Position numbers and translations under genes: made by a program. DNA of 64,000 nt from Sulfuricurvum sp. (GTDB lineage: Bacteria; Campylobacterota; Campylobacteria; Campylobacterales; Sulfurimonadaceae): the NCBI GenBank assembly GCA_030696775.1, contig JAUYRN010000005.1, forward strand, positions 186,001 through 250,000. Reading direction: 5' to 3'. The stretch's first letter is position 1; each line of letters opens with the position of its first letter. The notes beneath the pieces were generated by a model that saw only the letters and a list, made by a program, of their open reading frames with translations, was not told the DNA's origin and made no database searches. Positions 1-38,486 of the stretch are shown piece by piece.

Positions 1-686
1 TTTGCCAATGTTCCGACACGTCCGCCTAAAAAGAGGTTAAAACCATATACGCCATCTTTTTGTGCGAGAGTTAGGGCAAAATCCTGACCGAAGATATTAC
101 AGCGATTGGATAGGGAGCCATTGATTCCAATATTGAATTTACGAGGAAGTGTTGTAATCCACGCTTCATTTTTCAAAAATATTTTTTGAATTTCTTGCAT
201 GATGTGAGAAGAGGAGATGATATTGTCCATCGCCAACCCATCGAGAGGATCGATGAGAATATTACGGAAGTTATCCACACCCGTTTGGTAGCTTGTAAGA
301 CCGACGCTTTCCAGCAGACTTAGTGCTTCAGGTATATTTTCAATGGTGATGTAGCGTAATTCGATCTGCATACGTGTTGTGATGTCGATGTAGTCTTGAC
401 CAAAACGTGTTGCTACATCGGCTAGTGTCTGTGCTTGTTCTACACTTAAAGCCCCACCGGCAATACGTACCCGAATCATAAACTTTTCAGGGGTAGCCGG
501 ACGGTCAAAGACACCGAAACTTTTGAGGACGAAATCCTTGTCTTCGTCGGTGATGGAAGCATACCCTGTTTTGGAATATCCGATCAGTCGTTCCCATGCC
601 TCTGAGGCACTAAAAGCATCTTTGATAGTTTCGGTTTTGTGTCGTTTGGCACTGCGTGCTTCATTAGCCTGCATTAGCGATGTCAT
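1..686 (-). CDS. Ferredoxin-type nitrite/sulfite reductase (N-terminal part; truncated by window edge)
   Basis: Reverse-strand reading from ATG at 686 gives MTSLMQANEARSAKRHKTETIKDAF...FDRPATPEKFMIRVRIAGGALSVEQAQTLADVATRFGQDYIDITTRMQIELRYI..., typical of the nitrite/sulfite reductase half-domain. Overlaps the cobA 3' end; siroheme genes are adjacent. Confidence 0.82.
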   Translation of the reverse strand, partial: MTSLMQANEARSAKRHKTETIKDAFSASEAWERLIGYSKTGYASITDEDKDFVLKSFGVFDRPATPEKFMIRVRIAGGALSVEQAQTLADVATRFGQDYIDITTRMQIELRYITIENIPEALSLLESVGLTSYQTGVDNFRNILIDPLDGLAMDNIISSSHIMQEIQKIFLKNEAWITTLPRKFNIGINGSLSNRCNIFGQDFALTLAQKDGVYGFNLFLGGRVGTLA

Positions 687-1440
687 GTGCGGTCTCCTTG
701 ATTTCATGGATGTATTTTGGAAGTTTGGATTCGAGTGCGACGACATCACCAAAAATGATGATGGCAGGTTTGGGTGCTTTTTTGGCAGCTTTAGGCAAAT
801 CCAACAGGGTTGTGATAATCGTGCTTTGATGTTCTGTTGTGGCATTGGAAACGATAGCGACATTGAGCGCAGGGTTAATCCCTTTTTCCAGTGCTTCGGC
901 TGTGATTTGCTTTGCACGGCTCAGTCCCATCAAAACGATCGTTGTATGGTGCTTCATGTTTAGCAAGGGTATCCATTCCAAGTTCACACGATCACCTGCT
1001 AGATGAGCGGATACAACCGACATTCCAGTAGCATATCCGCGTGCAGTCGGGGCGATTCCGGCTGAGAGCGGACCGCAGAGTGCTGAAGATATCCCCGGAA
1101 TTACTTCGGTATGAATACCACATTCAGCGGCATAAATGGCTTCTTCCGTTCCTCGTCCGAAAATATAAGGATCACCGCACTTAAGACGACCGACATTCAA
1201 ACCGCTCAGGGCATATTTGGCAATGAGGATATTAATCTCCTCTTGGGTTGAGCTGTGGTGACCTTTTTCTTTTCCAACGAAGACGACTTTAGTCTGCAAC
1301 GGAATCAAATCAATAATCTCTTGGGTAAGGAGATGATCGATCAAGGCAATATCGAGTTTTTGAATGGTTTTTAGGGCTTTGAGGGTTAGTAAATCGGCAT
1401 CTCCCGGTCCGCATCCAATCAAATAAAGGTGTCCGCTCAT
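664..1440 (-). CDS. cobA: Uroporphyrinogen-III C-methyltransferase
   Basis: 258 aa; LYLIGCGPGDADLLTLKALK and VGRLKCGDPYIFGRGTEE motifs of the SUMT family. Confidence 0.93.
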   Translation of the reverse strand: MSGHLYLIGCGPGDADLLTLKALKTIQKLDIALIDHLLTQEIIDLIPLQTKVVFVGKEKGHHSSTQEEINILIAKYALSGLNVGRLKCGDPYIFGRGTEEAIYAAECGIHTEVIPGISSALCGPLSAGIAPTARGYATGMSVVSAHLAGDRVNLEWIPLLNMKHHTTIVLMGLSRAKQITAEALEKGINPALNVAIVSNATTEHQSTIITTLLDLPKAAKKAPKPAIIIFGDVVALESKLPKYIHEIKETAHDIANAG

Positions 1441-1541
1441 CGTATTTTCCTTATTAGGACTTTTTAATCTTCAAAATAATAGTGTAAAATGAGGGTTAGA
1501 AATGCAATAGATTGATTATTTTTTAAGCATAAAGGAATGTT

Positions 1542-2117
1542 ATGGCACTTTTCCCCATGTTCGTTGATTTGAAAGATCAAGATTGTCTCGTAATCGGTGC
1601 GGGTGAAGTGGCGCTTCGTAAGATTGAGCAACTGGTGAAGTTCGTACCAAACCTCACGGTCATCGCACCTGCTGTCCATGAAGAGATATATCAATTAGCA
1701 CATGATCATTCAATCGTCATTATCCAGCGTGAGTATGATTTGGAAGATTGTGAAAATCGATTTTTGGTTATTGGTGCGTTGGATGATCTACGTGAGCAGG
1801 AAAAAATTTATGCTGCTTGTATGACATTAAAGATTCCCGTCAACTGTGTCGATTCTCCGGCATTGTGCAGTTTTATTTTTCCTGCTTTGATTGTTGATGG
1901 AGATTTGTGTGTAGGGATTAATACGTCGGGGAAGGCACCTGCCGTGAGTTCAGCGTTGCGTCAGTATCTTACGGCTCTTATTCCTAAAAGAATTTCAAAA
2001 CTCATCGCCAGAGTGGATATTATTCGTCAAAATGAACCCGTAGGAAAAAAACGCCAAGAGAAGATTATCAGAATATGTCGGAAGTTTTTTAAGTTGTCTT
2101 CTGATGTTACACACTAA
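1542..2117 (+). CDS. Siroheme synthase, precorrin-2 dehydrogenase/ferrochelatase (CysG N-domain/Met8-like)
   Basis: 191 aa; MFVDLKDQDCLVIGAGEVALRKIEQL and NTSGKAPAVSSALRQYL, the NAD-binding siroheme synthase family. Confidence 0.9.
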   Translation: MALFPMFVDLKDQDCLVIGAGEVALRKIEQLVKFVPNLTVIAPAVHEEIYQLAHDHSIVIIQREYDLEDCENRFLVIGALDDLREQEKIYAACMTLKIPVNCVDSPALCSFIFPALIVDGDLCVGINTSGKAPAVSSALRQYLTALIPKRISKLIARVDIIRQNEPVGKKRQEKIIRICRKFFKLSSDVTH

Positions 2118-2249: not shown

Positions 2250-2693
2250 ATGTTGAACTGGAAAGAAGTATTAAGACTAGGAAAAGAAGGAAACTTAACT
2301 CCGGATAAACGTGTAGAAAAATCACCGCAAGAATGGCAAGAACTACTCAGCGATGAAGAGTTTCGTGTAACGCGTCAAGCAGGTACAGAGCGAGCCTTTA
2401 GCTCACAAATGTGTACACAGTTTGAAGCAGGTTTATATGAATGTGTATGTTGTGGCACATTGCTTTTTGATGCAACGGAAAAATTTGATTCGGGTACGGG
2501 CTGGCCGTCGTTTACTCAACCCATACAAAGCAATGCAATTGCCTACAACGCAGATCACTCTCATGGAATGACGCGTGTTGAGACGGTGTGTAATACCTGT
2601 GATGCTCACTTGGGACATGTCTTCCCCGATGGACCAAGTCCAAGTGGATTACGCTATTGCATGAATGCAGTGGCATTGAAGAAAGTGCATTAA
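2250..2693 (+). CDS. msrB: Peptide-methionine (R)-S-oxide reductase
   Basis: 147 aa; CxxC Zn pairs, GTGWPSF, HLGHVFPDGP, LRYCMNAVAL. Confidence 0.95.
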   Translation: MLNWKEVLRLGKEGNLTPDKRVEKSPQEWQELLSDEEFRVTRQAGTERAFSSQMCTQFEAGLYECVCCGTLLFDATEKFDSGTGWPSFTQPIQSNAIAYNADHSHGMTRVETVCNTCDAHLGHVFPDGPSPSGLRYCMNAVALKKVH

Positions 2694-3958
2694 AATTTAT
2701 ACGTTGCTTGTAGCCATACTTTGCTAACGTCTTTGACATATCCTGTGACATCCCCAGCTTGGTAATAAGCGGCTTTGACTAAAACACTAAGCCCTTTTAC
2801 GCCCGGGATAGCATTGGTATAAAGCATGTCCCATTCGTTTCCTAGGTCACTCTTTCCGTTCATAGCAACATCGGTTTTAAAGTCATGATAAACCACCATA
2901 GCTTTTCCAAAAGCAGGGGTTGTGTATCCAAGCGTAGCACTCGTATCACACAAACCGCCTGCTGGCGTAGCTGCTAGAAATTTATCCGCCCATCCGTTGA
3001 AAGCGTGTAATGTTCCCAATGGAGCAAAAAAAGCTGTTTTTCCATCAATGATTGTTCCTGCACTGTTGGTAGCTGCGCCGCTAAGAAACTCATATCCCAC
3101 ACCTGCAAGAATTCCGCTGATATTGGCCAGTGCATCAAGATTGTAGTATGAAGAATCATTCTCTTTTTTCACCGTTCCTACGGTTTTAAAGGTAGCATCG
3201 CCTTGTTGAGCGTATTCAGCACGGTAATTAATCTTAGCAATACTCAGAGGAACCTCACCCGTTAAGGCTAAACCAACGGTATCACTGCCATATGCTGTTT
3301 TTTCCGATGAAATCATATAATCATAAGCTGTGATTTTGAGCATATCACTTATTTTATACGAACCATTAAGGAGGACGGATTTGCTATCCCATGTTGGTTC
3401 GTCAAATACTGTTGCATAGCCGTATACATACGCACCCGTTAAAGTCAATCCAGTTATGGACGTATTGGTTAGAGTTACAGCATCCATGCTTTGCATCATC
3501 TGTCTCCAATCAACTGAACCGATAAAGCGCTGATTATCGAGATTGATAATCTGACGTCCTGCTTTGAGGGCAGTATTTCCTAATTTGTATTGGAAATAGG
3601 CTTGGGTAAAGCGAGTTTGTTCTGGATCAGCAACTACATCATAACCGGTATGCGCATCAGGCGATTTGTCATTGTAATTTTCGGCCCCGATCGTTTGAAC
3701 TGTAGTACCATCAACTTTCATTGATAATCCATCAATTCCTAGAAGATTAGTTTCTATACCAAGCGTTGCACGAAGGGTATATGCATTTGCTTGAGCTGCT
3801 GTATTGCTTTCATCATTCACATTTTCATAACGAGCACGTACTTCACCATTAAATTTAGTATTACTAAAGAGGGTAAAGCTGTCATCTGCACTTAGTGTAC
3901 TTGCAAATGTACTTGCAAGAGAGAGAACAGCCACTGCGGATAAGGTAATTTTTTTCAT
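2690..3958 (-). CDS. Outer-membrane porin (Campylobacterota major-porin/OprD-like), last gene of the nrt cluster
   Basis: Start placed at the internal Met MKKITLSAVAVLSLASTFASTLSADDSF (signal peptide). Beta-barrel-like repeats, C-terminal ...VWLQATYKF ending in F. Confidence 0.8.
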   Translation of the reverse strand: MKKITLSAVAVLSLASTFASTLSADDSFTLFSNTKFNGEVRARYENVNDESNTAAQANAYTLRATLGIETNLLGIDGLSMKVDGTTVQTIGAENYNDKSPDAHTGYDVVADPEQTRFTQAYFQYKLGNTALKAGRQIINLDNQRFIGSVDWRQMMQSMDAVTLTNTSITGLTLTGAYVYGYATVFDEPTWDSKSVLLNGSYKISDMLKITAYDYMISSEKTAYGSDTVGLALTGEVPLSIAKINYRAEYAQQGDATFKTVGTVKKENDSSYYNLDALANISGILAGVGYEFLSGAATNSAGTIIDGKTAFFAPLGTLHAFNGWADKFLAATPAGGLCDTSATLGYTTPAFGKAMVVYHDFKTDVAMNGKSDLGNEWDMLYTNAIPGVKGLSVLVKAAYYQAGDVTGYVKDVSKVWLQATYKF

Positions 3959-3986
3959 AGATAGTTCCTTTATATTTTTATATTTT

Positions 3987-4784
3987 TTAGTCTTCATGTT
4001 TGGCAAATTTGGAGTAGAGAAACTCAACAATAGCTCCACGGCATCGTAAATATTCTTCGTTATGCTGCAATTCTAAACGATTGCGCGGACGGGGAAGATT
4101 GACCTCTAATATCTCGCCGATGGTAGCCTCCGGTCCATTGGTCATCATGATGACTCGGTCGCTGAGTAAGACCGCTTCATCGACATCATGAGTGATGATG
4201 ATGACGGTATTACCGGTTTGCATCTGAATACGCATCAGATGATCTTGTAAGTTGGCACGAGTCAGTGAGTCGAGTGCTCCAAACGGCTCATCCATCAACA
4301 GCACTTTTGGCTCGATGGAGAGGGCTCGGGCGATTCCGACACGCTGCTTCATCCCTCCGCTGATTTCTGCCGGATATTTGTCTTTGGCGTGATCGAGATT
4401 GACGAGATCGATATAGCGCATCACATGGTCACGTACTTCTTTGGGGTGAAGATCATCTCTTACTTTTTTGACCGCCATCTCGATGTTTTGATACACTGTA
4501 AGCCATGGCAACAGAGAATGGTTTTGAAACACCACCGCACGCTCAGGTCCGGGGGCATTGATTTCTCGGTCTTCGAGCAAGATGACACCCTTGGTGATCG
4601 TATCCAGACCTGCGATGAGGTTGAGAATCGTTGATTTACCGCATCCGGAGTGACCGATGATAGAAACAATCTCATTTTCACGGATTTCCAGTTTCACATC
4701 CCGCAACGCGACGTACTCTTTACCTTTTCCCAAAGGAAATATTTTATCGACATGATCGATGTTTAAAAAGGGTTTTGCACTCAT
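3987..4784 (-). CDS. nrtD: Nitrate ABC transporter ATP-binding protein
   Basis: 265 aa; Walker A GHSGCGKST, signature ISGGMKQRVGIARAL, Walker B VLLMDEPFGALD; next to permease and NrtA-like SBP. Confidence 0.87.
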   Translation of the reverse strand: MSAKPFLNIDHVDKIFPLGKGKEYVALRDVKLEIRENEIVSIIGHSGCGKSTILNLIAGLDTITKGVILLEDREINAPGPERAVVFQNHSLLPWLTVYQNIEMAVKKVRDDLHPKEVRDHVMRYIDLVNLDHAKDKYPAEISGGMKQRVGIARALSIEPKVLLMDEPFGALDSLTRANLQDHLMRIQMQTGNTVIIITHDVDEAVLLSDRVIMMTNGPEATIGEILEVNLPRPRNRLELQHNEEYLRCRGAIVEFLYSKFAKHED

Positions 4785-5563
4785 ACGCGACCTCGCTTGC
4801 GATAATCAAAATGATCGGCGATAAACCCCATGATGGTGTCGAGGATATACCCGACTACACCGATGAGGATGATACCGATGATAATATGGGAATAGTTGAG
4901 ATTGTTATACTCATCCCAAATCCAAAAGCCAATACCTAATCCACCCGTAAGCATCTCAGCCGCGACGATGACCAGCCATGCGATTCCTAGTGACAAGCGC
5001 ATCCCTGTAAAGATAAAGGGTACCGCAACAGGGAGAATGATCTGAAACACTCTCTCAAATGCCGTGAGCTGAAGTACGCGTGCAACGTTGATAAAATCAT
5101 CACTCACGCTTCGGACGCCCAATGCCGTGTTGATGATAATCGGCCAGATAGAGGTGATAAAGATGACAAAAATCGCCGTCATATCCACGTCTTTGAACAC
5201 AAATAACGCCAACGGCAGCCACGCAAGCGGTGATACCGGCTTCAGAATTTGAATGTACGGATTAAAAGCGGTTTGCGCTATTTTAGACATTCCGATCAAA
5301 AGCCCTACAGGAATACCCACAGCGATAGCAAGGGCAAATCCGCCAAACACCCGCTTGAGGGAACTAAACAACTGCAATGCAATCCCTTGATCGCCTGCAC
5401 CATTGTCATACATCGGATCGGAGAGGACGATGAGTAATTCGTTCCATGTCTCTATCGGAGTCGGAAACCCAGGAATTTTAACCGCAACGGTTGACCATAC
5501 AGCAATAAGGACACCAAAAAGTAGTGTCGGTAATGCGATGGTATTGATGGTTTTTAAGAGCAT
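4781..5563 (-). CDS. nrtB: Nitrate ABC transporter permease
   Basis: 260 aa; multi-TM BPD permease (LKPVSPLAWLPLALFVF, AWLVIVAAEML); 4-nt overlap with nrtD. Confidence 0.88.
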   Translation of the reverse strand: MLLKTINTIALPTLLFGVLIAVWSTVAVKIPGFPTPIETWNELLIVLSDPMYDNGAGDQGIALQLFSSLKRVFGGFALAIAVGIPVGLLIGMSKIAQTAFNPYIQILKPVSPLAWLPLALFVFKDVDMTAIFVIFITSIWPIIINTALGVRSVSDDFINVARVLQLTAFERVFQIILPVAVPFIFTGMRLSLGIAWLVIVAAEMLTGGLGIGFWIWDEYNNLNYSHIIIGIILIGVVGYILDTIMGFIADHFDYRKRGRV

Positions 5564-5703: not shown

Positions 5704-6996
5704 TTATTTTACTTTCCATTTATTCACTTTTGCCAGTGCTTCTTTGGTCACTTTTGGATGTTTGATAGGGGTGTTATAAATATAATCAATGACTTTATTG
5801 GGGTCAAACACGGAAGCGTCCATAAATTTATTGTCCGCAGCTTTTCCCTCGATTTTCCATCCCGTTGCAGGAAGTGCATAGTTAACTTCTTTAGCAGCTT
5901 TGGCAAATAAATCGGGACGGTAAACACTTTCAACCGTCTTTTTCATATCGATAGGATGATCGAGTTGTCCCCAGCGCACCATTTGAGATACTTGCCACAA
6001 ACCGTGAGTATAGTAAGGGTAAAGTGCTTGTTTTTTACCAAAGGCATTGAACTGTGGCATGGGTGTATTGACCCCGTTGGTAAACATATATGTCCCCGTC
6101 ATGGAGTTGTCGATAACGTCTTTAGGGGCATTGACATACGATTTACTGGAGAGAATTGCTGAGGCTTCTTTTCGGTTATCCCATGATGCATCCAGCCATA
6201 CTCCAGCTTCTATGACCGCTTCAATCATTTGTTTAGTGGTTTCAGGATATTTGTCTGCGAACTCTTTTTGAACCCCTAATACTTTTTCAGGGCCATTTTC
6301 CCAAATTTGATTCCCTGTGATAACCACTTTTCCGATATTGCCCATAACGGCACGTTGTCCCCACGGTTCACCGACACAAAATCCGTCGATATTTCCGGCT
6401 GTCATATTCGCAACCATCTGAGGAGGCGGAACAACTTTAAGCGCTACCTCAGTATCAGGATCTACTCCACCCGCTGCCATCCAAAAACGCAAATGGTAGT
6501 TGTGTGTTCCTGTAGGGAATGTCATTCCAAACTCAGGAACACCCATAGTTTTAGCCGTAATGACTTTTTTTAGTGCAACGGCAGACCCTTTTTTAGTTGC
6601 GACGGGATCGGCTGCCATCATTGCATCGTACATTTTATTGGATACCGTAATAGCATCCCCATTTTGTCCCAATGCCATGAGGGCAACCATGTTTTTTTGG
6701 CTACTTCCGACTCCGAGTGTGGATGCGATCGGCATTGCCGCAAGCATATGAGATGCGTCAAGCTCGCCCACCGTCATTTTGTCACGAACATTTGCCCATG
6801 ATGCTTCTTTGCTCAGTTCTACATTCAGACCGTGTTTTGCAAAAAAACCTTTTTCTTTAGCAATAACGAGTGCTGCACAATCCGTTAATGGTATAAATCC
6901 GATCTTGAGATCTTTTTTTTCAACGGCCGCCATGGCTACTGTTGCTGCTAATGACAGTAGCAAAACACTTTTTCCAAGAACATTCAAACTTTTCAT
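5704..6996 (-). CDS. nrtA: Nitrate ABC transporter substrate-binding protein
   Basis: 430 aa; signal peptide, DLKIGFIPLTDCAALVIAKEKGFFAKHGL, GTHNYHLRFWMAAGG, GFCVGEPWG. Confidence 0.9.
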   Translation of the reverse strand: MKSLNVLGKSVLLLSLAATVAMAAVEKKDLKIGFIPLTDCAALVIAKEKGFFAKHGLNVELSKEASWANVRDKMTVGELDASHMLAAMPIASTLGVGSSQKNMVALMALGQNGDAITVSNKMYDAMMAADPVATKKGSAVALKKVITAKTMGVPEFGMTFPTGTHNYHLRFWMAAGGVDPDTEVALKVVPPPQMVANMTAGNIDGFCVGEPWGQRAVMGNIGKVVITGNQIWENGPEKVLGVQKEFADKYPETTKQMIEAVIEAGVWLDASWDNRKEASAILSSKSYVNAPKDVIDNSMTGTYMFTNGVNTPMPQFNAFGKKQALYPYYTHGLWQVSQMVRWGQLDHPIDMKKTVESVYRPDLFAKAAKEVNYALPATGWKIEGKAADNKFMDASVFDPNKVIDYIYNTPIKHPKVTKEALAKVNKWKVK

Positions 6997-7066
6997 AATG
7001 AAACTCCTATTTAAGACTTAAAAATCTGAAATAATTATAAACCAAATAATAAAAAGTATATGCAAC

Positions 7067-7098
7067 TTGTTGATTAAAAAATAAACAGTTTGTTGATT
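7067..7098. promoter_or_regulatory. Candidate nitrate-assimilation regulatory region upstream of nrtA
   Basis: Two direct TTGTTGATT copies (7067-7075 and 7090-7098, 23 bp apart). 7071-7087 TGATTAAAAAATAAACA is identical to the reverse complement of 38467-38483 upstream of narK. Confidence 0.5.
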
Positions 7099-7209: not shown

Positions 7210-9402
7210 TTACCACTTCTTATTGTGACAATCGTAACAACTTACCATTTGACCTTTTGTATACGTTTTACTTTTTCCCTCGACACTCAAGGTTCGTGTT
7301 GTCCATGTTTTAGAGAGAACACTTCCACGTAAATCTGCACCATGACATGCGGTACAGCTTGTCGTACCTCTTTCAGCCACATCTTGGTGTGCACTTACTG
7401 CTGTTTGTCCGACAGCGTGCATTCCGTGCGGTCCCCCTGTGAAGTTTGTAGGTACCGTTGTGTGACACGTTGAACATTCAGCAATTGTTCCGGTGTGCCC
7501 TTGTAAGGCGATACTTTGAACATTATCGTTCGCGTGGCTGCTTGGGTACTCCGCGTGAGTCGCACCGTGGCAGGATTCGCACTGAAGATTGCCATGTCCT
7601 TTACTGAATCGGTAAAGTGATTTACCCGTCATTGGTGTATTGGCTGTGGTTGCAAATTTCGGATCAACCGTCGCACGCAATGTTCCTGGAGAAGAAAACA
7701 CACTGTTGTAGCGGGTAAAATTACCCGAAGTTGTATTTTTATCATGACACTGCTGGCAGTTAGGCTGATCCAACCATCCCGCACGTCCTGATTTGCCCAC
7801 ATCGCTCATTGTACCGTGACAGCTTTGACAATCAATGGCGTTACTGCCATTTGCATTTTTCGCATTTCCCATCGCACCGCGAAGACATTTCGTGACAGAA
7901 CCTGGATGACATTGGTAGCACGAATCGCGATTCATACTGCTGTTCATCGTAGTACCTGTCTTAGGGTCGATAACATTGGCGTGTTTAGAGTGCAATGCTT
8001 CTGTAAGAGGTTTAATTCCTGTTTTAAGCGGCGTACCCAAAGCATTCGATTGATGACACGATGCGCATAAAATTGGTTGCCCTGCATTTGCTGTCGCCAA
8101 TAATGTTCCATTTTTATAAGTCGCGCTCATATTTGCATCAGTAATTGCATTTGGATGTTTATCGTCATGCAGTTTTAAAATATTTTTCTTCCACTCTTTT
8201 TCTTTAATCGTATCTGTTTCCCATCCTGCGCTTGGTTTCGCAGCAGCAACACTGTTTGAGGCATGACAACTGACACAGCTCATCTCATCTGAGACGGGAA
8301 GAACGACTTTTGTACTCGCCAAGATTGTCCCTGCGGCATCTTTTGCAACCACTTTGACCATCGGATAGTAATTTTTGGCACCATTGTCATCGTATGGTAT
8401 CGTCGGAATCCCCTCTGCTTCCCACCAACTGTTAACGCTGTTGTACGACATCGTTTGGGGAGTATTGCTTTGCGTCTTTTTACCGGTTAATCCTGTTTCA
8501 ATTCCTAATAAAGCAGCAGCATCCCCAAAAAGCTTCCCAATATAATCCCAAAAATTTGTTTTTGTCGAACTCTTCGTATTTATAGATCCTGTTGTATCTG
8601 CAACGGCTTCATAGGTAAGTGTTATCCCGCTACTTGTGTTCGTGATAGATTTTCCTGTAGTTGCATCTTTACTGATGAGATGAGCATGAAGATTATTGTA
8701 CGGGGGAAGGATGCTAAATACCGAGTAATCTTTTCCGTCCACACAATGCATACCTAAATCATTCCAGGCTACAAGGGTGTACTTTCCATTCCCAACTGAT
8801 GGAGGAATAATCGGAGGGGTTGTAGTCGTAGGCGGAGGAGTATATCCCTCTGCTCCATTAGACTCATCATCTGTATGATCTTCAAAATGAGTTTTTGCTT
8901 CCACCTCGCTTACAGTATAGGATTGTCCTATCGTAGCTTGAATAGCATCGTCATCATCGGTTTCACTCAAGTCGATGTGATTTTGATTTTTAAATGTTTC
9001 ACGATGCAATACATCAATAGTGATACCGTTGGATGCATTATGATCACTGTCAAGCGTTTGAAGTACTTGGAGAATGTTGATTACTTTTGGATCATCAACA
9101 GTTGTGCCAACCAAATCCAGCGGAGTTATTACTCCATTTTTAGGTTTAGCTGTTCCTAAATAAAGATTACCGATATGAAAGCTAATAGATTCGCCTTCTT
9201 TATAAATAAAGTTACCCTTTGAATCGGTAATACCATTTTTTTGTGTATCACTCTCAAATTCCAGTCCCTCTACGGGAGAATCGATAAATGTCGCTGTAGA
9301 TAGACCTGTTACTGAATTGACAGTTCCGCCGCTTCCCCCGCCGCATCCTGTAAGAACGAACGCTGCTAGCACCGATGAAACCAGTCCTATTGCCTGTCGC
9401 AT
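7210..9402 (-). CDS. Multiheme (9 CXXCH) cytochrome c lipoprotein
   Basis: 730 aa; lipobox FVLTGCGGG; CVSCH, CASCH, CYQCH, CQSCH, CQQCH, CESCH, CSTCH, CTACH, CYDCH. N-terminal domain shared with 12007-14295. Confidence 0.9.
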   Translation of the reverse strand: MRQAIGLVSSVLAAFVLTGCGGGSGGTVNSVTGLSTATFIDSPVEGLEFESDTQKNGITDSKGNFIYKEGESISFHIGNLYLGTAKPKNGVITPLDLVGTTVDDPKVINILQVLQTLDSDHNASNGITIDVLHRETFKNQNHIDLSETDDDDAIQATIGQSYTVSEVEAKTHFEDHTDDESNGAEGYTPPPTTTTPPIIPPSVGNGKYTLVAWNDLGMHCVDGKDYSVFSILPPYNNLHAHLISKDATTGKSITNTSSGITLTYEAVADTTGSINTKSSTKTNFWDYIGKLFGDAAALLGIETGLTGKKTQSNTPQTMSYNSVNSWWEAEGIPTIPYDDNGAKNYYPMVKVVAKDAAGTILASTKVVLPVSDEMSCVSCHASNSVAAAKPSAGWETDTIKEKEWKKNILKLHDDKHPNAITDANMSATYKNGTLLATANAGQPILCASCHQSNALGTPLKTGIKPLTEALHSKHANVIDPKTGTTMNSSMNRDSCYQCHPGSVTKCLRGAMGNAKNANGSNAIDCQSCHGTMSDVGKSGRAGWLDQPNCQQCHDKNTTSGNFTRYNSVFSSPGTLRATVDPKFATTANTPMTGKSLYRFSKGHGNLQCESCHGATHAEYPSSHANDNVQSIALQGHTGTIAECSTCHTTVPTNFTGGPHGMHAVGQTAVSAHQDVAERGTTSCTACHGADLRGSVLSKTWTTRTLSVEGKSKTYTKGQMVSCYDCHNKKW

Positions 9403-9476
9403 AGTGACTCCTTTATTTAAACTTTATCCGTTATGGTAAACTACCATTGTGAATTTTTGATGAACGAAGGGATTTT

Positions 9477-10139
9477 ATGCACTTATTAATTATTGATGAC
9501 AATGAAGAATTACTCTATGCCCTGCAACAGCTTTTGAGAGATGCACAGTATCATGTTGATGTCGCTACAACGATGCTGGAAGGTGCTAATAATATTGATC
9601 AAAAGAAATATGATTTGATTTTATTAGACTGGATATTGCCCGATGGCACGGGTATTGAGCTATTGACACGGCTACGTCATGAAAAGATACGCACACCGGT
9701 TTTACTTTTCTCCTCTAAAAAAGAGGTGGAAGATAAAGTCGAGGCACTTGACGGTGGTGCTGATGATTATCTCGAAAAACCTTTTTCAAATATCGAACTA
9801 TTGGCTCGCATTCGAGCACTATTACGTCGTGAGAGTAGCCAAAAACAAACACTCATGCAGTTAGGCAGCCTTACAATAGATTTTTCATCACGAAGTGTCT
9901 TAATCAATGATAAGCCAGCAAAGCTCTCGGCTAAAGAGTTTGAATTGTTAGAATTGCTCATCCTAAATGCAAATACAGTTTTAACCCGCTATCAAATATC
10001 AGAACATCTAAGCCGTGACTTTGACCATCTTAGTGCCAGTAATATCGTCGATGCTCACATTAAAAATCTGCGTAAAAAACTTAATGCTGATGAGTTGATC
10101 CAAACTGTGAGAGGTGTGGGCTATATGATTGCTCGCTAG
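9477..10139 (+). CDS. OmpR/PhoB-family response regulator
   Basis: 220 aa; receiver (IIDDNEELL, LILLDWILPDGTG) and winged-helix output (DAHIKNLRKKLNADELIQTVRGVGYMI). Confidence 0.93.
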   Translation: MHLLIIDDNEELLYALQQLLRDAQYHVDVATTMLEGANNIDQKKYDLILLDWILPDGTGIELLTRLRHEKIRTPVLLFSSKKEVEDKVEALDGGADDYLEKPFSNIELLARIRALLRRESSQKQTLMQLGSLTIDFSSRSVLINDKPAKLSAKEFELLELLILNANTVLTRYQISEHLSRDFDHLSASNIVDAHIKNLRKKLNADELIQTVRGVGYMIAR

Positions 10140-11839
10140 TTTTTGCAGGATCGAAAATGAAATAATGCAATAGTCCCTTTGCCCTCACCCTCACTACGAA
10201 GGTATAAGTCTCCGTGGAGTAATACAGCGATACGCTTACTAATAGCGAGCCCTAATCCACTCCCCTCCTGTGTATTGTGTTCTTCTGTTCGCACTTGATA
10301 AAAATCATCAAATAAGTCTGCCAAAGATTCTTGTTTTATCCCCCGGCCACTGTCTTTTACCTGCACAATAAAAAGATTTTCATAATAGTGAAGCTGCACG
10401 TCAATAAATCCATGCTCAGTAAATTTGATGGCATTGGAAAGCAAGTTGATAATGACTTGTCCAAAAAGACGCGGATCAGTTATAAAATCTCCTTCAAACG
10501 GTTCAAATTCTGTTCGAATGCGCAACCCTTTATCTTCAGCTAATGGAGAGACAAGATCCAGTGCATTTTCGATCAGGGTAACTGGATTACAGACAGTAAG
10601 ATGAGGTTCCATTTTTCCTGATTCTACTTTTGCTAAATCCAAAATATTATTAATAACTCCCAAAAGGTGATGGGCTGAATTTTCGATTTTTTCGAGAGTT
10701 TCACATACAGGGATAGGCGTACTTGGCTGTGTTATTAGATACTGAGTCAGGCTTAAAATAGAACCAAGCGGTGTCCGTAATTCGTGGGACATAGCCGATA
10801 AAAAAGAAGATTTTGCTTGTAATGCAGCCTGTGTTTTTCCCAGTAATTCCAAGCGCTTAATATTGACCATTGTCGTGAACATGAGAGCATTAAATGAATG
10901 TGCCATAATCCCTATTTCATCGAATCCTGTCGCAACAACAGTTTGAGAGTAGTCGCCTGTAGTTGAAATCTTCATCGCGGTATCAGAAAGCTCACGAAGC
11001 GGTTTAATAATGCGAAGAAGAATAATCCAAACCAAAAATGCAATGAGTGCAAGTCCAACAGCAAATAGACTTAGCAACAAGGTTTGAAAGTGATACAAAA
11101 GAGCAAGAGCCTCATTTTTTGGCATGGCATAGTGTAATGTCCACCCCTTTAATATTCCATTCAGGTCCACACTGTCATGCAAATAGGCACTTGTATCCAA
11201 TATCGGATTATTTCTTTTATAGTGAATAGACGGAATAGCGGAGGGTGGAGTTAACCAACGATAAAAGCCTTGATCAGCTTTGAGCTGGTTCGCAAAGTTT
11301 TTGAAGGGATAGGCCATTACCAGATAACCTAAAAAGTCTTTTGTATAAAATGATCCGTATATAGGGGTGAAAAAATAGAGATTTTCTCCAAAAAATAGAG
11401 TATTTCCCCCTCTTTTAATGGCATTTCTCACCATCTCTTTTTCGGGTAAAGTAGTATTAAGTAGAGTTGCTTGAGATGAAGCTGTAACAGTAAAATCAGG
11501 TGCAATCGTGTACAAAGTAATGGACTCTTCCAAGTCATCCGCTTTTTGTTCCAAAATGCTTGTGATCCGTCGATCCATATCTTGTGTTACCATATCATTC
11601 ATCACTTCAAGCCGTGACAAAAATAAAATCTCTTTTTGTAATTTGACAAGATGTGTAGAGAGATCATTCGCAACATCAATCGACTGAATATGGAGTAAAT
11701 CTTGCTCTTTTGTAAGCATTAATTCGGATTCATATCCCCACAAATACGAAAGCAAAGCGATGATAATGACGGCAATTCCCCCAAAAAGGGTGATAAAGAG
11801 CTTGTACACTATGGGTAAAGAATTCCATCGATGTTTCAT
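10136..11839 (-). CDS. Membrane sensor histidine kinase (periplasmic sensor, HAMP, HisKA, HATPase)
   Basis: 567 aa; H-box SHELRTPLGSILSL, N-box LLSNAIKFTEHG, DSGRGI, GSGLGLAISKRI. Confidence 0.93.
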   Translation of the reverse strand: MKHRWNSLPIVYKLFITLFGGIAVIIIALLSYLWGYESELMLTKEQDLLHIQSIDVANDLSTHLVKLQKEILFLSRLEVMNDMVTQDMDRRITSILEQKADDLEESITLYTIAPDFTVTASSQATLLNTTLPEKEMVRNAIKRGGNTLFFGENLYFFTPIYGSFYTKDFLGYLVMAYPFKNFANQLKADQGFYRWLTPPSAIPSIHYKRNNPILDTSAYLHDSVDLNGILKGWTLHYAMPKNEALALLYHFQTLLLSLFAVGLALIAFLVWIILLRIIKPLRELSDTAMKISTTGDYSQTVVATGFDEIGIMAHSFNALMFTTMVNIKRLELLGKTQAALQAKSSFLSAMSHELRTPLGSILSLTQYLITQPSTPIPVCETLEKIENSAHHLLGVINNILDLAKVESGKMEPHLTVCNPVTLIENALDLVSPLAEDKGLRIRTEFEPFEGDFITDPRLFGQVIINLLSNAIKFTEHGFIDVQLHYYENLFIVQVKDSGRGIKQESLADLFDDFYQVRTEEHNTQEGSGLGLAISKRIAVLLHGDLYLRSEGEGKGTIALFHFRSCKN

Positions 11840-35476: not shown

Positions 35477-37117
35477 CTATTTTGAAATATAAAGTACAAA
35501 TGTTAGAACTTCAAGGGTGAACATAACCAAAAAAGCAATTTTATAAAAGGTAACAGGGGAACGTTCGATCAGTGAACTCCCTTTAGAAAAATAGGGTTTT
35601 ACTTTTTCAGGTGATTTGAGCTCATAAAAAAATTCTGAGTAGTGCGAGTAACGCTCATTGGAATCGAGTGCAATGGAGTGCATAATGATGGAATCGAGCC
35701 ATCCAGGAATATTTTTGTTGAGCTTGATAGGTCGTTTGGGAGTTTTAAATGTAGGTGTTTGGAACGGCTCAATCTCACCATAAGGCATCACGCCCGTAAG
35801 TGCCCAGTACAGTGTTACTCCGATGGAAAATAGTTCACTCGATTCGTTGATAATTCCTCCTATAAAACGCTCTGGTGCTAAATAGCTTGGAGTTCCTGCA
35901 CGGGAGTTGAGAGAGAAAATTTCGACTATGGATCCAAAATCAACCATTTTAAAAGTCACGCCCGCCTCATCCACTTTTTTAGTGACGATAATATTTTCAG
36001 GCTTGATGTCACCATGAACGAGTCCTAAGTGGAGTAGATGAGCTTCGGCTTTGTGTAAAAATTTCCCCAATTCAATCGCAGTATCAATGGAAAGAGTGCG
36101 ATTTTTGAGATAGTCTCGTAGATTTATCCCTTCAATCAGTTCCATAAGGTAATAACGCATGGTACGTTCTTTTGGAACCCATGCGTGGCCAAATGCTTTG
36201 TGGGTAACCTGTTTAGCATACCATGCTTCTCGGACAAACTCATCGAGCGCTTGAGGATCATCACCGTTCATTGGAAATTTCATCACAAAAAGTTCATCGC
36301 TTTTAGAGACTTTCCAAATACGGCGGTGCTCCATCATGGGAGAGAGGAGGGTATAACCGTCGATGACTTGACCCTCAAATAGAGTTTCAGGAATAGGTAA
36401 GGGTGCATTTTTGATCGCGTGGAGCGGATCGAGTGCGTCAATTCGAAAAATTTGCAAACTCATATCATCACGATCTTTTGGGAGAGCGTTTTGAGATATG
36501 TGGGTGACGATGCTTTTGGCTCCTAACCCTTTTTGTATCAGTTCTAAAAAAGAGACATTATCGATGAGATTATAAACTCCATCACTGCAAAGAATAAGTG
36601 TATCCCCAACGGCTATGTGTGTAGAGAGAATCGGGACATCAATATTTTCGCAAAGCCCGCATGCTTGCGTAAGTACGTGAGACATATACTCATCGTCCAT
36701 GGTATGGTCGGTACTAAGCTGTTGCAGTTTCCCCTCGGATGACAAAAGATAAATACGAGAATCACCGAGATTAAGGGAATAAAGTGTTTCACCTTCGATG
36801 ACGGTAAGGCAAAGGGTGGTGAGAAGTTCGATTTTCTCGTATTGTGACATCGATTCTTTGAATAAAAGATTGTTAATATGACGGGTGAACACTTCCATTG
36901 TTTTAGGAATATCCCACGCTTTTGGACGCGTTTTAAACTGGTCGATAAAAAATTTTACGCATTGGCGCGCCGCGCTTCCGCCACGCTTCGCACTTCCGAC
37001 TCCATCGCATAAGACGCTGACAAATAAGGTATTGTCGATGATGCTAAAAGCACACGCATCATCCCCCATACAATCAGGTTTAGGTAGGATGAATTGTGAA
37101 GAATGAAGGTGTAACAT
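35477..37117 (-). CDS. Bifunctional PP2C-type phosphatase / Ser-Thr protein kinase, C-terminal TM
   Basis: 546 aa; PP2C motifs (LCDGVGSAKRGGSAAR, GDTLILCSDGVYNL) then kinase (HGDIKPENIIV, VDFGSI, GTPSYLAPERF). Confidence 0.9.
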   Translation of the reverse strand: MLHLHSSQFILPKPDCMGDDACAFSIIDNTLFVSVLCDGVGSAKRGGSAARQCVKFFIDQFKTRPKAWDIPKTMEVFTRHINNLLFKESMSQYEKIELLTTLCLTVIEGETLYSLNLGDSRIYLLSSEGKLQQLSTDHTMDDEYMSHVLTQACGLCENIDVPILSTHIAVGDTLILCSDGVYNLIDNVSFLELIQKGLGAKSIVTHISQNALPKDRDDMSLQIFRIDALDPLHAIKNAPLPIPETLFEGQVIDGYTLLSPMMEHRRIWKVSKSDELFVMKFPMNGDDPQALDEFVREAWYAKQVTHKAFGHAWVPKERTMRYYLMELIEGINLRDYLKNRTLSIDTAIELGKFLHKAEAHLLHLGLVHGDIKPENIIVTKKVDEAGVTFKMVDFGSIVEIFSLNSRAGTPSYLAPERFIGGIINESSELFSIGVTLYWALTGVMPYGEIEPFQTPTFKTPKRPIKLNKNIPGWLDSIIMHSIALDSNERYSHYSEFFYELKSPEKVKPYFSKGSSLIERSPVTFYKIAFLVMFTLEVLTFVLYISK

Positions 37118-38395
37118 TTATATTTTTGCCCCTGAAACTGCGCCCCACGTTGTTCTCCAACGCGTTTTAACCAGACTGATACCGCTCATAGCGATAAGAA
37201 CCATCACACCGAAGATCAAAAATCCGGCTGTATATCCCTCGAATGTTCCTTGAGACCATCCGAATGTTTTGATAAGAGCCGTACCGCCCAAACCGCCTGC
37301 TGCACCGATAAGTCCTGTCATGACCCCGATGTCTTTTCCAAAACGCTGCGGAACGAGTTGAAAGACTGAACCGTTTGCCATTCCCAAATTTGCCATGATA
37401 AGAAACATCACGACAATCGCTGCCCAAAACGGAAGTTTGATAAAGGCACTGATAAGTGAGAGAACGACAATCATACCAAAAAAGATATAAAGTGATTTGA
37501 TTCCCCCCATTTTATCGGCAACTGCACCGCCAACCGGACGAAGCATCGCTCCTGCAAAAATACAAAGTGCTCCGAAATATCCAGCAATAACTTTGACGTT
37601 CTCTTCGTTCATCACATCGATACCAAAGGCAGACATATCTGCTTGGTAGGTGTTCATCAAATAGACTTTCATGTAGTTGGCAAATCCTATGAATCCTCCG
37701 AAAGAGACGGCATAAAAGAGGTTAAACCACCATGTATCTTTATCTCGCATGAGTTTCATGTAATCCGCTAATTTTTTAGGATTAGGTTTGTAGATACTTA
37801 CAGGTGCGTCTTTCGCCATAAGCATATAGGCTACCAAGACAATACTTGATAAAATCCCGCCGACCAAGAAGACCGATGCCCATCCCCAAAGCTCTGCAAT
37901 TTTAGGGGCAAACAAAAAGTCAATAACAACCCCGATATTTCCAGCCCCTGCAATCCCAAGAACCGTTCCCTGAAGACGCGGTGGATACCATTGACCTGCT
38001 TGCGGGAGTGCTACGGCGAACGATGCACCTGCAAAACCAAGACCCAATGCAACAAGAAGAAGCTGATTATAGGTAATAGAATCCGCACTGATATAGGCTA
38101 AAAACAGTGTGGCAATCACGATGAGCTGAGAAACAAGCGCGGTTTTTTTCGCTCCGAATTTATCGACAAATACGCCTAATACAATACGCAGCAATGCACC
38201 CGCAAGTACCGGAACCGCGAGCAGTGTCGCTTGTTGATCATCACTCATGGTAAATCCGCGACTTGAGAGGCTTTCACCAATTTCGGTTGCCAATGGTCCC
38301 AGCATCGTCCACATCATAAAACTAAAATCAAAATACAAGAACGCAGCAAACAGTGTTGGCCAGTGCCCCTCTTTTTTTAAATCTCCAAATTTCAT
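37118..38395 (-). CDS. narK: Nitrate/nitrite transporter, MFS NarK/NasA-type
   Basis: 425 aa; 12-TM MFS; GLGFAGASFAVALPQAGQWYPPRLQGTVLGIAGAGNIG. Confidence 0.9.
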   Translation of the reverse strand: MKFGDLKKEGHWPTLFAAFLYFDFSFMMWTMLGPLATEIGESLSSRGFTMSDDQQATLLAVPVLAGALLRIVLGVFVDKFGAKKTALVSQLIVIATLFLAYISADSITYNQLLLVALGLGFAGASFAVALPQAGQWYPPRLQGTVLGIAGAGNIGVVIDFLFAPKIAELWGWASVFLVGGILSSIVLVAYMLMAKDAPVSIYKPNPKKLADYMKLMRDKDTWWFNLFYAVSFGGFIGFANYMKVYLMNTYQADMSAFGIDVMNEENVKVIAGYFGALCIFAGAMLRPVGGAVADKMGGIKSLYIFFGMIVVLSLISAFIKLPFWAAIVVMFLIMANLGMANGSVFQLVPQRFGKDIGVMTGLIGAAGGLGGTALIKTFGWSQGTFEGYTAGFLIFGVMVLIAMSGISLVKTRWRTTWGAVSGAKI

Positions 38396-38460
38396 GTATC
38401 CTCCTAATTAGGATTTTTTTATCTTAAAATTGTACACCATGACGTAATGCTTTCTATTCA

Positions 38461-38486
38461 GTTGATTGTTTATTTTTTAATCAGTT
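38461..38486. promoter_or_regulatory. Candidate nitrate-assimilation regulatory motif upstream of narK
   Basis: GTTGATTGTTTATTTTTTAATCAGTT; 38467-38483 is the exact reverse complement of 7071-7087. Confidence 0.5.

Follow-up and report, generated by a model that had tools for sequence, protein, structure and literature searches.

How do two nitrate uptake genes about 31 kb apart in a Sulfuricurvum genome, nrtA and narK, come to share an identical 17-bp word upstream of their start codons, and what, if anything, binds it? Both genes lie in the window, the whole 64,000-nt stretch of DNA analyzed here. The identity, pointed out in an earlier note made from the sequence alone, is exact: TGATTAAAAAATAAACA at 7071-7087 (+) is the reverse complement of 38467-38483. 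The note took the word for the operator of an undescribed nitrate-assimilation regulator. Our analysis supports an operator and a regulator, with a wider scope: the regulon is a global nitrogen regulon and not one for nitrate only, taking in ammonium transport, PII, glutamine synthetase, nitrogen fixation, siroheme and molybdenum cofactor.

Exact identity of a 17-mer is not rare and by itself proves little. Markov-simulated windows contain a mean of 0.9 inverted 17-mer pairs, and 45% of them contain at least one. The significance of the operator rests instead on genome-wide and cross-species tests. The common word is an imperfect 17-bp palindrome, TGNTTA-N5-TAANCA, so its orientation is irrelevant, which explains the inverted placement relative to nrtA and narK. 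The pattern TGNTTA-W5-TAANCA has exactly seven matches in the 2.55-Mb genome and the reversed control has none. All seven precede genes (nrtA, narK, cobA/cysG for siroheme, nifA, two amtB genes and a dCache-CheW sensor gene), six of them plainly nitrogen genes, and the two amtB genes with operators flank glnK. Frequent hits at random intergenic sites, which would have refuted the operator, were thus not seen. A third copy within the window, between cobA and cysG (1513-1529), had been missed in the earlier note. These own-genome counts come from strict patterns, not from a full matrix scan, and by strict pattern no glnA site was found in this genome. The genome also has a single copy of the variant TGTATA-N5-TATACA, located 66 bp before a gene that weakly matches the Nitro_FeMo-Co family.

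The flanking repeats had also been proposed as parts of the operator. They are present, with TTGTTGATT at 7067 and 7090, 23 bp apart, and GTTGATTG at 7092 and 38461. Neither is conserved in orthologous nrtA or narK promoters, and GTTGATTG occurs eight times in the window, both strands counted. Direct or inverted GTTGATTG repeats were rejected as the operator on these two grounds. The signal unit is the 17-bp palindrome, without the GTTGATTG/TTGTTGATT flanks. An FNR/CRP-type site was excluded by reasoning, as such sites have even symmetry and the 17-bp palindrome is odd.

The site is widespread in relatives. The 41 genomes of the genus hold 265 sites (control, 8), and 32 further genomes of the family hold 95 (control, 19). 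The site precedes nrtA and narK orthologues not only within the genus but also across the family and in further families of the order; lack of such conservation would have spoken against an operator. Site contexts in other genera and families include glnA, amtB-glnK, nifA, nifU with a PII-like gene, nrtA, narK and nirA; further contexts in relatives are nasA-like molybdopterin reductases, moaC, an FNT-like transporter, urtA-like genes, porins and the same CheW sensor. Relatives of the Alginate_exp-type channel that closes the nrt cluster have an operator in other genomes. Two of the relatives' sites read for context (L168 and one of those in L169) lie within confident reading frames; the others are intergenic. 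Some (e.g. L143, L144 and L176) have no obvious nitrogen target.

The position of the site relative to the promoter is fixed (Table 1). Sites lie about 55-80 bp before nitrogen-assimilation genes. Of the 78 site-to-gene orientations examined, 53 have a hexamer resembling TATAAT, with no more than one mismatch, that begins 32-33 bp past the site. In 2000 shuffles, the mean number of promoters with that spacing was 4.3 and the maximum 12. Each of the seven own-genome sites keeps to this spacing at its target gene. If the transcription start lies at the usual distance from the -10 box, the site is centered near -52. A center near -52 at a fixed spacing of 31-32 bp upstream of the -10 box is activator geometry at a housekeeping-sigma promoter. 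A minority of promoters also carry a weak YTGNA element at positions 6-10 after the operator, which may be a -35-like or accessory contact.

Table 1. Operators, predicted promoter elements and genes in the window, and the genes for proteins A and B on other contigs
Feature	Position	Strand	Remarks
cobA, uroporphyrinogen-III C-methyltransferase	664-1440	-	target; siroheme is the cofactor of assimilatory nitrite reductase
Predicted -10 box of cobA, TATTAT	1476-1481	-	starts 32 bp after operator; orthologous spacing
Third operator, TGCTTA-AAAAA-TAATCA	1513-1529		matrix score 22.3
cysG N-terminal-domain protein (precorrin-2 dehydrogenase type)	1542-2117	+	divergent; operator 12 bp before start codon
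Alginate_exp-type outer-membrane channel	2690-4039	-	end of nrt cluster
nrtC/D, ABC transporter ATPase	3987-4784	-	
nrtB, nitrate ABC transporter permease	4781-5563	-	TIGR01183 above cut-off
nrtA, NMT1_2-type nitrate ABC transporter substrate-binding protein	5704-6996	-	target
Predicted -10 box of nrtA, TATAAT	7034-7039	-	starts 32 bp after operator
Operator, TGATTA-AAAAA-TAAACA	7071-7087		74 bp before nrtA start codon; matrix score 21.3
narK, NarK-family nitrate/nitrite MFS transporter	37118-38395	-	target
Predicted -10 box of narK, TACAAT	38429-38434	-	starts 33 bp after operator
Operator, inverted copy	38467-38483		71 bp before narK start codon; matrix score 20.8
Gene A	C14:126314-127126		between slyD and fabD
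Gene B	C21:143015-143689		own genome

Searching the genome for Fis-type domains returned NifA, an HP1021-like regulator and a protein of 220-270 aa that we call A (214-267 aa in the 51 sequences aligned). NtrC is the best NCBIfam family for the own-genome A. Aligned with full-length NtrCs by hhalign, A scores 99.7% probability (E 5e-27) with the GAFTGA segment gapped, and its AlphaFold model (pLDDT 88) matches NtrX, VpsR, ZraR and NtrC1. No receiver domain was matched, and none of the 51 aligned A sequences is long enough to hold one; the GAFTGA sigma-54 loop is likewise absent from all 51. Walker A is present in 48 of them and a Walker B-like motif in one; ATPase activity is not shown. At the C-terminus, a Fis-type helix-turn-helix matches HTH_8, with an NR.TL core in 51/51. 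This is strong evidence that A is an NtrC remnant, with a shrunken AAA+ domain and a Fis/NtrC-type helix-turn-helix, and without receiver or GAFTGA.

Gene A adjoins amtB/glnK or an operator in several families. It diverges from amtB-glnK with the operator between them in G078, lies just downstream of an operator in G079, and stands beside amtB in G087 and G089. At gene A's own promoter in both G078 and G079, only 20-21 bp separate the site from the start codon, so that autorepression is possible there. The recognition helix of A, LNRNTLRKK, is near-identical to that of E. coli Fis, INRGTLRKK. The operator fits the 15-bp Fis consensus GNTYAAAWTTTRANC (PMC6907758) in the outer positions, and GNTTA-W5-TAANC has the same length; such a fit is expected from the Fis-like helix. 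Toward the center many sites depart from the consensus, and the fit does not imply a Fis-like role. Fis, at 98 aa, is an architectural protein of general use, whereas A has a remnant AAA+ domain and only a few, nitrogen-specific sites. Comparing recognition helices with operator variants gave no clean pattern. The inference that A binds the operator is strong, in the absence of binding, expression or deletion data.

The putative partner of A is a protein of 200-260 aa, B, whose gene adjoins A in 21 order-level genomes and lies elsewhere in others, including our own. Its structural model shows a PAS domain joined with the catalytic fold of a histidine kinase, and a fold search with B has the NtrB CA domain (1r62) among its matches. 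The PAS domain has a weak PAS/NtrB sequence match as well as the PAS fold in the model. B matches NtrB weakly (pairwise E 5e-7), and a search of B against PDB sequences found nothing. The H-box with the phosphoacceptor histidine is missing from all 16 B proteins, versus present in 39/39 NtrB proteins, and the N, G1 and G2 ATP-binding boxes are each found in 0/16, with the CA fold kept. B may thus be related to NtrB, on no more than a weak sequence match and fold similarity. A and B are best described as NtrC/NtrB-related remnants that fail defining tests of both families and are not strict members, although they would do the work of a nitrogen regulator.

Among 47 order-level genomes, the 11 that lack A are precisely the 11 that lack B (G074, G080, G082, G085, G098, G100, G102, G109, G114, G115 and G116; in G080 a weak A match covers only part of the AAA+ region). 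These 11 span several families, two of which (f9 and f10) also hold members with the pair, so the pair has probably been lost several times. Within the genus, one draft genome (G019) is without A and has B and nine sites. Order-level genomes with A hold 72 sites against 19 control matches, and those without A hold 6 against 10 (P = 0.0018, uncorrected for phylogeny; the co-loss counts are not phylogenetically independent). The four sites inspected in genomes lacking A are inside unrelated genes. Several genomes with A and B have no or few strict sites. In some of these, or in close relatives of them, the TGTATA-N5-TATACA form is found; it is a lineage variant that stands before glnA, amtB, nrtA or gene A, in most cases with the distance unchanged. 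Three such genomes (G086, G117 and G106) have zero to few strict sites and no TGTATA variant, and their operator may have diverged further.

The pair is also kept without sigma-54. Neither a sigma-54 DNA-binding domain nor a strong sigma-54 activator was found in six near-complete genomes with A and B, two of which have operators before narK/nirA and amtB. Together with the TATAAT spacing, these genomes led us to reject a sigma-54 promoter with an NtrC-type enhancer, and with it the need for sigma-54 and a -24/-12 promoter that marks sigma-54-dependent enhancer-binding proteins. An OmpR-family regulator beside nrtA (9477-10139) was a candidate by position only and was set aside, as operator presence tracks A and B instead. 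The region that adjoins nrtA there (7210-11839) has a multihaem cytochrome gene divergent from the OmpR-type response regulator gene, followed by a histidine kinase gene on the opposite strand; no operator copy was found in it.

Our preferred reading, which we consider highly probable, is that the 17-mer serves a global nitrogen-limitation regulon of Campylobacterota as its operator and is bound by A; the partnership with B and a signal passing by contact from GlnK through B to A are its inferred part. Within this reading, the operator and the regulon are near-certain, there is good support for the inference of activation rather than repression, and the inferred signaling from PII to B to A by contact is plausible. 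GlnK, the PII protein encoded between the two amtB genes, would be the probable nitrogen signal, and A would act with B as an obligate partner. Since both lack the phosphotransfer residues, signaling is expected to be by direct protein contact and not by phosphorylation. PII is known to dock on the catalytic domain of NtrB. In the proposed route GlnK would contact B and B would contact A, which, at -52, would recruit sigma-70 RNA polymerase under nitrogen limitation. The broader proposition, that Campylobacterota run a nitrogen regulon through a two-component pair with PII contact in place of a phosphorelay and with sigma-70 output, kept where sigma-54 is missing and lost together with its operators, we hold to be only somewhat better supported than not.

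Three other explanations were weighed. The operator may be real and bound by something else, such as an orphan HP1021-like or HsrA-like response regulator or an undetected protein, with A and B doing something different. No binding data exist to exclude this, and the genome does encode NifA and an HP1021-like protein with a Fis-type domain; HP1021 and HsrA have been described in Helicobacter and Campylobacter (PMC9449129). However, regulators that are generally present would not explain an operator excess that tracks A and B (the distribution of HP1021 and HsrA themselves was not searched), A stands beside amtB-glnK with the operator between, and NifA, which many site-bearing genomes lack, is one of the targets. 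We regard a different regulator as unlikely.

Marginally less likely again is that the bound protein is a repressor lifted under nitrogen limitation. The site close before the start codon of gene A in G078 and G079 would suit repression, but sites at target genes lie clear of the core promoter, at a fixed spacing before the -10 box, as activator sites do. That the common word arose by chance, or is merely some AT-rich promoter element of a generic kind, has the simulated windows in its favor and almost no credibility left: it does not account for the counts in this genome (7 versus 0) and in the genus (265 versus 8), the nitrogen-gene specificity across families or the fixed -10 spacing. The chance reading is refuted for the palindrome and stands only for the GTTGATTG flanks.

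Binding by A with B as partner, our preferred reading, places the system close to NtrB-NtrC of Proteobacteria. The NtrC regulon comprises glnA, amtB and glnK with taxon-specific narK, nrtABC, nasA, nirA and urt (PMC5343134), and its core genes glnA, amtB and glnK are preceded by our operators in several families. The two systems are alike in regulon content and in PAS, AAA+ and Fis-type domains, and both operators are 17-bp palindromes with TG...CA ends. Unlike NtrB-NtrC, A and B are without receiver, GAFTGA, Walker B, phosphoacceptor histidine and ATP boxes, go with -10-spaced promoters and are often encoded apart. The operator center also differs, being TTA...TAA here and CACC...GGTG in the E. 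coli NtrC operator.

The nearest precedent is NtrC of Rhodobacter capsulatus and Caulobacter, which lacks GAFTGA and acts at sigma-70 promoters but keeps its receiver and needs the receiver aspartate (PMC10274813). A resembles these proteins in the deleted sigma-54 loop, the sigma-70 promoters and NtrC-family nitrogen control; they differ from A in the retained receiver, the required aspartate and an intact NtrB kinase. Rhodobacteraceae NtrCs are among the best matches to A outside Campylobacterota in a scan by helix pattern. Degenerate enhancer-binding proteins of the TyrR and VpsR/VspR types share with A an NtrC-type AAA+ domain, a Fis-type domain and the lack of sigma-54 activation; unlike A, they carry additional sensory domains at the N-terminus and control unrelated sets of genes. 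Global nitrogen regulators outside NtrBC also serve glnA, amt and nitrate genes, namely NtcA of cyanobacteria, GlnR/TnrA and AmtR; they belong to the CRP, OmpR/MerR and TetR families, are unrelated to A and have different operators.

Nitrogen-assimilation control is a knowledge gap in free-living Campylobacterota such as Sulfurimonas, Sulfuricurvum, Sulfurovum and Sulfurospirillum, which are important chemolithotrophs and in some cases nitrogen fixers. A study of the NtrC regulon in 169 genomes omitted Epsilonproteobacteria for having no orthologues of the target regulators, NtrC included (PMC5343134). We found no paper describing the A/B/operator system in the open-access literature (subscription journals were outside the search). 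Every element of the system, from operator and promoter geometry to regulon, regulator and partner, can now be named and put to a direct test. If the signaling reading is true, a two-component pair survives as a pair after losing every phosphotransfer residue.

Several genes recur near operators. A PP2C-phosphatase/protein-kinase fusion gene (35477-37117, -) lies directly downstream of narK, and relatives of it (L057 and L160) are near operators in other genera. In several genomes (L159, L150 left gene, L052 and L115) amtB-glnK or an operator has as its neighbor the gene for a conserved protein of 280-300 aa; this protein has no Pfam match (L159 scanned) and is possibly a sensor of the regulon. 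The dCache-CheW protein (859 aa; site C14:376104 in G000; gene L180:4202-6781) has its own operator in three genomes, ours and two relatives (L153 and L162), which suggests a chemotaxis or sensing protein within the nitrogen regulon.
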